From: Candidatus Aenigmatarchaeota archaeon
GTDB lineage: Archaea > Aenigmatarchaeota > Aenigmatarchaeia > QMZP01 > QMZT01
Assembly (NCBI GenBank): GCA_016932735.1
Contig: JAFGCI010000001.1
Location: forward strand, 1-64,000
Direction of reading: 5' to 3'
Length of the DNA stretch: 64,000 bases
The notes under the pieces were generated by a model. The model had not been told where the DNA came from, did not search any database, and worked only from the letters and a program-made list of their open reading frames with translations. The position numbers and the translations under genes were made by a program. Positions 46,204-48,381 of this stretch are shown piece after piece; position 1 is the stretch's first letter, and each line of letters starts with the position of its first letter.

Positions 46204-46983
46204 TCAGGACAAATTAAACAATCTTTTTCTGGTCAATTCGAGATATTCTTTCTCTGTGTCTATTCCAATGTACTTTCTTCGAAGCATCTTTGCAACAACC
46301 CCGGTTGTCCCTGAGCCATTGAAAGGATCGAGAACCAAATCCCCCTCATCAGTGCTTGATTCAATTATCCTTTTCAAAAGTTCTATCGGCTTTTGCGTCG
46401 GATGCTTTCCATGGACTTTTTCTCTTAACGGCGTTAACGGAATTGACCAGACACTTTTCATCTGTTTTCCTTTAGGATTAATCTTATCAGAATTCCAGTC
46501 CTTCATTTTCTGATAATTGAACTTGTGCCTTCCGTTCTTTCTTGCCCAGAGAACAGTTTCATGACTGTGAGCAAAATACCTGCAGGAAAGATTCGGAGGC
46601 GCATTTGGTTTGAACCAGGAAATCTCATTTAATATCTTGAATCCCAGAGTCTGCAATGCAAAACCAATGTAATAAATATTATGGGGTGTTCCTGAAATCC
46701 AGATAGTTCCGCCATCTTTAAGGACTTCCCTGCATCCTGAGAGCCACTTAAGCGTGAAATCGAAATTGTCCTTAAAGCCGTTGGACTTATCCCATTCCGC
46801 CTTATCAACACGGACCATCTTACCTGCCTTGCAGGTAATACCGCCATTGGACAAAAAGTAAGGCGGGTCCGCGAAGATCATGTCGATGCTATTGCCTGCA
46901 ATCATAGAAAGTATCGTGGTGCAGTCGCCCAGATAAAGGACGATGTCTCTTTCCCTGTAGAAGATTTTATCAATTAAAACCAA
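46204..46983 (-). CDS. DpnA-like beta-class DNA adenine methyltransferase
   Basis: 259 aa. Motif IV is DPPYFLSNGG near residues 39-48 and the SAM-binding motif I is DPFNGSGTTG near the C-terminus, a beta-class order. The segments VDKAEWDKS, GTIWISGTPHNIYYIGFAL, APPNLSCRYFAHSHETVLWARK and GKHPTQKPIELLKRII closely follow M.DpnIIB (DpnA), from memory, so GATC is the predicted target. Only a TTG start (46983) is available in frame; the TATA box (47013-47021) fits a near-leaderless transcript, with three GATC sites in the promoter. It lies downstream of the DpnI-like gene. Confidence 0.88.
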   Translation of the reverse strand: MVLIDKIFYRERDIVLYLGDCTTILSMIAGNSIDMIFADPPYFLSNGGITCKAGKMVRVDKAEWDKSNGFKDNFDFTLKWLSGCREVLKDGGTIWISGTPHNIYYIGFALQTLGFKILNEISWFKPNAPPNLSCRYFAHSHETVLWARKNGRHKFNYQKMKDWNSDKINPKGKQMKSVWSIPLTPLREKVHGKHPTQKPIELLKRIIESSTDEGDLVLDPFNGSGTTGVVAKMLRRKYIGIDTEKEYLELTRKRLFNLS

Positions 46984-46991
46984 GATACATC

Positions 46992-47006
46992 GATCCGATC
47001 TTGATC
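46992..47006. promoter_or_regulatory. Cluster of three GATC sites in the methyltransferase promoter
   Basis: GATC at 46992-46995, 46997-47000 and 47003-47006, between the TATA box and the start codon of the methyltransferase gene. If the enzyme methylates GATC, these sites would let methylation state feed back on its own transcription. Confidence 0.5.
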
Positions 47007-47059
47007 AGGATTGCTTATAAAACATTATCAAGAAAATGTTAAGGAACTGTTAAGAATTA

Positions 47060-47836
47060 CTACATCCTTATTATTTTATATTCTCCTCTCGAGTTGAATT
47101 CCAGCAAATTTTTATCTCTAAGAATTTGTAACTGTTGCCTTATTTTTGCTTTTATGTTGTTGTTTGCAGGATGCAGTTCTTTTAGATAGTCTTCAAATTT
47201 ATACACATCTTTCAGAATAAATTGTTCTTTTCTCAAATCTTCAACACATTTCAGGACATCGGAAGTCCATCCCCTAAGTTCAGGTCGTTTTTCATTAAGG
47301 AAACTCATTCTTTTCCATGCTTTGTTGACTTTCTCTTTGGATATTATTTCTTCATTTCTGATTATTGGTATCCTTCCATCTTCAGGTATCCTATCAAGAA
47401 GTATATTACACCCTACCCATTCATTAGACCTCCCCTTTGGTTTTGTAGGGTTTCTTTTCTCAATTATCGAAAGAGAAAAGAAAAAACGTGGTACCATGAA
47501 AAGATTTTTTATAACCCATTCATCTCTCGAGTAATGCATCAGAAGAAAATTTGGAATTCTGTTTGCTCCAATAGAAGATGTCATAGTATAGAATTCTCCA
47601 TCAACAACTCTTTTTCCAAATTTTGTTTTGGAAGCTTTCAACTGGAAATCGTTTCTACATTTAGGGCAGATAAAATCGAGAACTTTTGTATTATTTTTCA
47701 GAGACTCTACATTCCCATTAAGACAACAAGGACAATACATTTCAGAAGAGAACCAGTTTTCAGAAAGTACCCTGATTATCTGGCTCGGGCTTTTGTAGTG
47801 CTTCAATACATCATCGTCTAAAATAGAAATCTGCAT
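47060..47836 (-). CDS. DpnI-like restriction/methyl-GATC reader protein
   Basis: 258 aa with DpnI layout: an N-terminal PD-(D/E)xK-type domain with zinc cysteines C35, C38, C57 and C60, and a C-terminal winged helix (about 190-258) with RQQLQILRDK identical in type to DpnI. WVGCNI and RGWTSDVL also match. DpnI cuts only adenine-methylated GATC. From memory of DpnI, its D53-E64-K66 triad corresponds here to D54-Q65-K67, so the catalytic Glu is Gln. Start ATG 47836; a GATC lies in its promoter at 47863. It is divergent from the nuclease-like gene at 47947. Confidence 0.88.
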   Translation of the reverse strand: MQISILDDDVLKHYKSPSQIIRVLSENWFSSEMYCPCCLNGNVESLKNNTKVLDFICPKCRNDFQLKASKTKFGKRVVDGEFYTMTSSIGANRIPNFLLMHYSRDEWVIKNLFMVPRFFFSLSIIEKRNPTKPKGRSNEWVGCNILLDRIPEDGRIPIIRNEEIISKEKVNKAWKRMSFLNEKRPELRGWTSDVLKCVEDLRKEQFILKDVYKFEDYLKELHPANNNIKAKIRQQLQILRDKNLLEFNSRGEYKIIRM

Positions 47837-47946: not shown

Positions 47947-48381
47947 ATGTCAAAATATTTTTGTAATGAGTGCAGGAAACCAATAACAGAGGACGAGTTC
48001 CTTTTTTCAACTGGCAAATACAGGAGACCCCTTTGCAGGTTTCATCAAAAAGAAGAAAAGAAATCAACGCCGGAGGCTTTAGAACTTGGAAAAGCATTGA
48101 AAAGTAGGGGTGTTCCAGTTGAATTGGAGAAATTTGACGGTTTCAAGCATATTGATATAGCAGTCTTTGATGCTAAAGTTAACATAGAGGTTGATGGCGT
48201 ACAGCACAATCTGAAAAAGGAGCAGGCTTTGGCTGATCTTAAAAGAACATTCTTTTCTTTCAAAAAAGGTTTTCTTACTCTCAGAATACCCAACATACTT
48301 GTAAGAGATAAAAAAACTCTTGAAGAAACTGCCGATTTTATAACAGAATTTCTTATTGAAAGCAGAGATCAATTAGAATAA
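47947..48381 (+). CDS. Zn-finger plus DUF559/Vsr-like nuclease domain protein
   Basis: 144 aa. The N-terminus has CNEC (residues 6-9) and a later Cys/His pair near 30-33 (CRFH), a possible zinc finger. The rest looks like the DUF559/Vsr-type PD-(D/E)xK fold: KHIDIAVFDAKVNIEVDGVQH gives the Asp and the ExDG segment, followed by FLTLRIPN. It is divergent from the DpnI-like gene with about 110 bp shared promoter DNA, so it may belong to the same DNA-modification islet. Activity is unproven. Confidence 0.68.
   Translation: MSKYFCNECRKPITEDEFLFSTGKYRRPLCRFHQKEEKKSTPEALELGKALKSRGVPVELEKFDGFKHIDIAVFDAKVNIEVDGVQHNLKKEQALADLKRTFFSFKKGFLTLRIPNILVRDKKTLEETADFITEFLIESRDQLE

Follow-up and report, generated by a model that had tools for sequence, protein, structure and literature searches.

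How can one genome carry both a gene for an apparent GATC methyltransferase and a gene of the DpnI family, whose namesake cuts DNA methylated at GATC? DpnI and GATC methylation are the textbook example of mutually exclusive systems, and a genome that has full-length genes for both offers a way to examine directly how the conflict between them is settled. A pair of this kind is found in the window analysed here, a stretch of 64,000 nucleotides from an archaeal draft assembly (Candidatus Aenigmatarchaeota; 1.18 Mb in 11 contigs), whose gene content likewise reads as archaeal. A first-pass annotation of the sequence had described a DpnI-like and a DpnA-like gene on the same strand with a 76-bp gap between them, and both ORFs are indeed there. 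P0001 (47836–47060) and P0002 (46983–46204) are both full length, both on the minus strand, and separated by 76 bp (46984–47059). The annotation took the two for close homologs of known antagonists. It suggested that the pair would be self-toxic unless the methyltransferase had another target, the DpnI-like protein did not cut, or expression alternated, and that it could be a new kind of epigenetic switch or defence system.

P0002 is a beta-class N6-adenine methyltransferase of the DpnA type, with 259 aa and a TTG start. It matches the Pfam family N6_N4_Mtase (1e-65), its motifs DPPY, HPTQKP and DPFNGSGTTG are all intact, and it is 56% identical to the DpnA-type enzyme of LlaDCHI (plasmid pSRQ700). 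Its relatives at 53–67% identity include enzymes from cassettes with DpnM and/or R.DpnII (L036, L038, L040, L042); in L036 the DpnA-type enzyme is the sole methyltransferase beside R.DpnII. A further relative, in L048, belongs to a cassette with DpnM, and the same cassette neighbours accompany relatives of P0002 on plasmids (pSRQ700/LlaDCHI, S. aureus, L. brevis). In a maximum-likelihood tree, P0002 is nested among the enzymes of DpnM/R.DpnII cassettes, with the archaeal L048 enzyme as its sister; support is 83/91 for this group and 99/99 for the separation of the CcrM types. The specificity inferred for P0002 from its clade is GATC. Because it groups with the GATC enzymes of DpnII cassettes, the conflict with its DpnI-like neighbour is real on paper.

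No second GATC-type methyltransferase was detected in the genome (P0002 has no further match there at E ≤ 1e-20). Searches by family in this MAG, which is ca. 91% complete, found neither R.DpnII (PF04556) nor a DpnM/Dam enzyme of the D12 class (PF02086). In the archaeal genome that carries L048 (G192), a 208-aa protein without a Pfam match is encoded at L048:880–1506, overlapping the DpnM gene and divergent from the DpnA gene. No R.DpnII was seen near these genes, and the 208-aa protein is a candidate for a new GATC nuclease.

P0001 encodes 258 aa and has the architecture of the DpnI family, a PD-(D/E)XK catalytic domain (ca. aa 5–181) followed by a C-terminal winged helix, the m6A reader (aa 186–253; the minus-strand codons 47063–47281 cover aa 186–258). 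Both Pfam domains are present (DpnI 1.7e-61, DpnI_C 7.1e-31), and DpnI (4esj/4kyw) is the sole match in the PDB (E 2.4e-59, residues 9–254). The predicted AlphaFold structure, with a mean pLDDT of 85, matches the fold of 4esj_B with a TM of 0.85–0.91. P0001 shares about 37% identity with DpnI and differs from it at several recognition residues, and for this gene "close homolog" was too strong a term.

These differences were located in an alignment with homologs from several phyla, in which the DpnI row served as the numbering ruler; its residues agree with the published ones at the positions used (PMC4117772). The active site of DpnI consists of D53, E64 and K66, its guanine readers are R126 and R135, and its methyl pocket is formed by L129, R135 and W138, with G140 propping up W138 (PMC4117772). 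The corresponding active-site residues of P0001 are D54, Q65 (= E64 of DpnI) and K67. In the loop that reads the methyl group and guanine (aa 130–145, DpnI 128–143; minus-strand codons 47402–47449), L129 is replaced by T131, A133 by G135, R135 by S137 and G137 by E139, while D53, K66, R126, W138 and G140 (DpnI numbering) are kept. Arg135 is present in 56 of the 56 other homologs that have this position, and position 129 is Leu in 49 of the 49 with a residue there; P0001 has Ser and Thr. The winged helix departs from the family at none of 22 near-invariant positions. The nearest relative of P0001 (L008, 61% identity) has an ordinary loop and no methyltransferase close by.

The replacement of the catalytic E64 by Gln was rejected as proof of a dead nuclease, because Gln is likewise found in L008, L052 and L159. 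Since the DpnI single mutants R135A and L129A partly retain cleavage of Gm6ATC, and since none of the loop mutants, R135A included, cuts unmethylated DNA (PMC4117772), the change in the loop points to weakened cleavage, and proves neither its loss nor a switch of specificity. One way out named in the first-pass annotation, a DpnI-like protein without the cutting activity of DpnI, has support at the level of sequence, in the changes from Arg135 to Ser and from Leu129 to Thr.

The gap between the two genes has features of its own. In minus-strand order it contains the TATA-like box TTTATAAG (47021–47014), which from its sequence is a putative separate archaeal promoter of P0002, then GATCAAGATCGGATC (47006–46992), and then the TTG start at 46983. 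The second element holds three GATCs in 15 bp (46992–47006; plus-strand starts at 46992, 46997 and 47003) and is a putative methylation-responsive operator. This triplet is the tightest in 247 kb of the genome, with a start-to-start span of 11 bp against 51 bp for the next. Upstream regions were compared for 232 ORFs of at least 120 aa: 219 have no GATC in the 60 bases upstream, 12 have one, and the P0002 gene has three. A Poisson estimate from these counts gives a chance of ca. 5e-5 of at least three GATCs in one given 60-bp stretch. Usual archaeal spacing would put the cluster between the TATA box and the transcription start, and methylation or a bound protein there would affect initiation. 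No such cluster is found upstream of related methyltransferases or cassettes; it was seen in the window's genome alone and is thus peculiar to this locus. Promoters of methyltransferases controlled by cognate sites are known from CfrBI and LlaDII (PMC3874152). The three GATCs in the core promoter of P0002 lend support to the proposal of an epigenetic switch.

Other DpnI-family loci provide the context for the pair. A GATC-type methyltransferase gene abuts the DpnI gene in 15 of 57 such loci, and in all 15 that gene is either broken or cut short; only in the window does an abutting methyltransferase gene have its full length. This tally omits L155, which has a methyltransferase piece within 600 bp, because its methyltransferase is an unrelated 232-aa type. 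The antagonism expected from the two enzyme types is upheld by the position of P0002 among GATC enzymes, and with both genes intact the window pair is unusual among the loci compared.

The broken genes take several forms. In Gastranaerophilales (L141–L143), a DpnA gene lacking its last 8–10 residues is followed by DpnI, a 69-aa gene and an R.DpnII without its N-terminus (that of L141 is truncated by the contig end). Further loci of this group have a methyltransferase with an added stop (L011), a frame break (L146) or only a stub (L145), and methyltransferase stubs are also found in L012 and L149. In Campylobacterales, DpnI starts in the middle of dpnM at varied points (e.g. after 83, 106, 117 or 251 residues), and the dpnM stop and the DpnI start abut or overlap. 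In the gonococcus, drg is followed by a DpnA gene split into two ORFs; a broken methyltransferase next to drg had already been reported (PMC6789123), and the gonococcal genome is not methylated at GATC (PMC4269198). A published survey counted fewer than 100 potential conflicts among more than 1,000 winged-helix nucleases, with adjacent methyltransferases inactivated by frameshift (PMC11037411). These loci indicate that insertion of DpnI into or beside GATC methyltransferase genes is recurrent over several phyla and not a peculiarity of Neisseria, and that the usual casualty is the methyltransferase. DpnI-family genes beside GATC methyltransferases were thus known before (Neisseria drg: PMC4269198, PMC6789123; survey: PMC11037411), as was the silencing of such a conflict by promoter methylation in another pair (PMC8989522), and the idea of a new kind of system is not sustained.

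Insertions into, or directly after, dpnM or dpnA were seen in L168, L169, L177, L179, L186 and L187 (Campylobacterales) and in L149, L012, L141–L146 and L160. Their breakpoints differ, and stop and start are often abutting or overlapping; "dam replacing" looks from these sequences like a general habit of the DpnI-family gene. A family of N6_N4 methyltransferases of 205–250 aa (the THWSFPKRGDWATH... type) recurs beside DpnI and DpnII cassettes (L012:6364–7062, L019:6013–6693, L039:3482–4231, L155:5301–5951, L169:2611–3228). One DpnI homolog (L017:4959–5951, 330 aa) has a duplicated winged-helix domain. A viral scan found no DpnI relatives in viruses, and those on plasmids and phages consist of gonococcal records and one winged-helix-like piece, nothing else.

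One further locus is a candidate for a second case of coexistence. In a member of the Gracilibacteria (genetic code 25), L019:2839–5726 is an operon of an intact DpnM-like methyltransferase, an AlbA_2 (Schlafen) protein and a DpnI-like protein that has the most diverged catalytic domain and an unchanged winged helix. Together with the window this makes two cases in which an intact methyltransferase accompanies a DpnI-like protein altered in its catalytic domain, and so small a number gives no more than a hint of a link.

The reading preferred here, to which somewhat less than an even chance is given, is that the conflict has been defused on the DpnI side and that the methyltransferase limits itself through the GATCs of its promoter. 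The window would hold both partners of a DpnI/DpnII cassette exchange, once antagonists and each still full length. By sequence, P0002 is an apparently intact member of the DpnA group, whose enzymes methylate GATC, and it would do the same. P0001 appears to have lost part of the means by which its catalytic domain reads Gm6ATC, with Ser in place of Arg135, Thr in place of Leu129 and, at the metal site, Gln in place of Glu64. It would no longer cut Gm6ATC at a lethal rate, and its winged helix could still bind methylated GATC. P0002 would be transcribed from its own promoter, where methylation or a protein at the three GATCs would limit expression, as in CfrBI and LlaDII. Most relatives were rid of the conflict by breakage of the methyltransferase; in the window it was apparently removed on the DpnI side. 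For P0001 itself, a nuclease with weakened cleavage, a relic and a regulator that binds methyl-GATC all fit the sequence.

An unlikely but serious alternative is that the pair is left over from a cassette swap. In this account a DpnI gene would have landed by a resident DpnA-type gene, the two would have no joint function, and one would be disappearing; a variant covered by the same estimate is that the MAG mixes strains with alternative cassettes. In several phyla, DpnI-family genes lie repeatedly inside DpnII or Dam genes or beside them, together with remnants of methyltransferases, and the assembly is a draft in 11 contigs. A DpnI homolog was found in one of 156 genomes of the phylum, the window's own, so that this gene was most likely imported. 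The base composition of the two genes also differs. The DpnI-like gene has a GC content of 33.6% (3rd percentile) and the methyltransferase gene one of 41.8%, average for the genome. This contrast suggests separate arrivals, and a joint function of the pair is therefore not assured. Against a relic, both frames are full length and free of stops, the P0002 gene has its own TATA box and GATC cluster, and every near-invariant residue of the winged helix is kept in P0001.

Divergent from the DpnI-like gene is a gene for a 144-aa DUF559 protein (47947–48381, plus strand). With a GC content in the 3rd percentile it is as AT-rich as the DpnI-like gene and may have arrived together with it; the protein has an N-terminal stretch with Cys. 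It was discarded as a conserved third component, because it was not found beside other DpnI or DpnA genes. A comparison with relatives for an empty site gave no result – synteny on the DpnI side is not conserved, and the same-genus contig stops within the neighbouring gene.

Rather doubtful is a feedback circuit, in which a disarmed P0001 would bind the three methylated GATCs of the promoter and repress P0002, so that the extent of GATC methylation would be read and kept at a fixed level. To our knowledge, P0001 would be the first methylation-reading regulator in the DpnI family. If it is now only a reader, it would show a route from methyl-dependent nuclease to epigenetic regulator.

It is improbable that the pair is a conventional type II restriction-modification system, with the DpnI fold re-targeted to unmethylated GATC or a variant of it and P0002 protecting the host. 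The R-like and M-like genes adjoin on one strand, and the changes in the loop of P0001 fall at the very positions with which DpnI senses methyl groups. In addition, no tetramer is more strongly depleted than GATC in a 247-kb sample of the genome (265 observed, 933 expected, ratio 0.28); GANTC words stand at 0.95 of expectation. However, the loop mutants of DpnI, R135A included, gained no activity on unmethylated DNA (PMC4117772), and the m6A reader in the winged helix of P0001 is conserved. Genomes with DpnI-type enzymes commonly avoid GATC (PMC4687349), and the avoidance is as strong without the pair: the ratio is ca. 0.19 in G004 and G012, genomes of the same family or order that gave neither a DpnI homolog nor a close DpnA-type enzyme. 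The ratios of relatives lacking the pair range from 0.19 to 1.22, and for this reason the depletion was ruled out as proof of restriction by the window pair. Given this variability and the common avoidance with DpnI-type enzymes, the depletion supports past restriction directed at GATC in the lineage but does not speak for an active pair.

That P0001 is a working Gm6ATC nuclease, with P0002 kept off or acting on single-stranded DNA only, is quite improbable. The pair would then be a case of alternating expression or a self-destruct switch, and unscheduled or induced methylation would mark foreign or own DNA for cleavage. P0001 may still be an active DpnI, given that Asp53, Lys66, Trp138 and Gly140 are kept, as is the winged helix, and that the R135A and L129A mutants are partly active; the promoter GATC cluster could hold P0002 off. 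The DpnA enzyme of S. pneumoniae methylates DNA in single-stranded form and is produced mostly at competence (PMC3573125), and silencing by promoter methylation lets PcaRCI and PcaRCII coexist (PMC8989522). On the other side, the Arg135 lost from P0001 is invariant in all other homologs, and no inducer or regulator gene was identified. The related DpnA-type enzymes, moreover, probably methylate double-stranded DNA, as one of them is the sole methyltransferase beside R.DpnII (L036).

That P0002 has another target, e.g. GANTC or a longer motif, and that no conflict arises is very improbable – the beta class does include CcrM (GANTC), the best PDB match of P0002 (E 5.2e-59), but the tree splits P0002 from the CcrM types and places it inside the DpnA group with LlaDCHI and other DpnM/R.DpnII cassette enzymes, and GATC, not GANTC, is clustered in its promoter and depleted in the genome.

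Several known systems resemble parts of the locus. DpnI of S. pneumoniae and Drg/NgoAXI of Neisseria (type IIM; Pfam DpnI or Dam-replacing family) have the two-domain architecture, the predicted fold, the Asp and Lys, Trp138 and the winged helix in common with P0001. The gonococcal locus also has the gene order of the window, with drg followed by a DpnA-type methyltransferase (PMC4269198, PMC6789123), but there the methyltransferase is broken and Drg cuts Gm6ATC, whereas in the window it is the methyltransferase that is intact, and Arg135 and Leu129 are missing from the DpnI-like protein. DpnA and M2.LlaDCHI of the DpnII-type cassettes have a length similar to that of P0002, the same motifs and a place in the same clade. 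Unlike them, P0002 has its own putative promoter with three GATCs and is partnered with a DpnI-like gene, in a genome where DpnM and R.DpnII were not found. In PcaRCI/PcaRCII of Pectobacterium, a methyltransferase and a nuclease that attacks its methylated motif coexist by means of promoter methylation (PMC8989522); the enzymes are of other families and it is the nuclease promoter that is silenced, whereas in the window the cluster lies in the promoter of the methyltransferase, on which it would act. CfrBI and LlaDII, to which the window cluster is likened, have cognate sites in the methyltransferase promoter that control its expression (PMC3874152), but they are orthodox restriction-modification systems, whose nuclease cuts unmethylated DNA and does not belong to the DpnI family.
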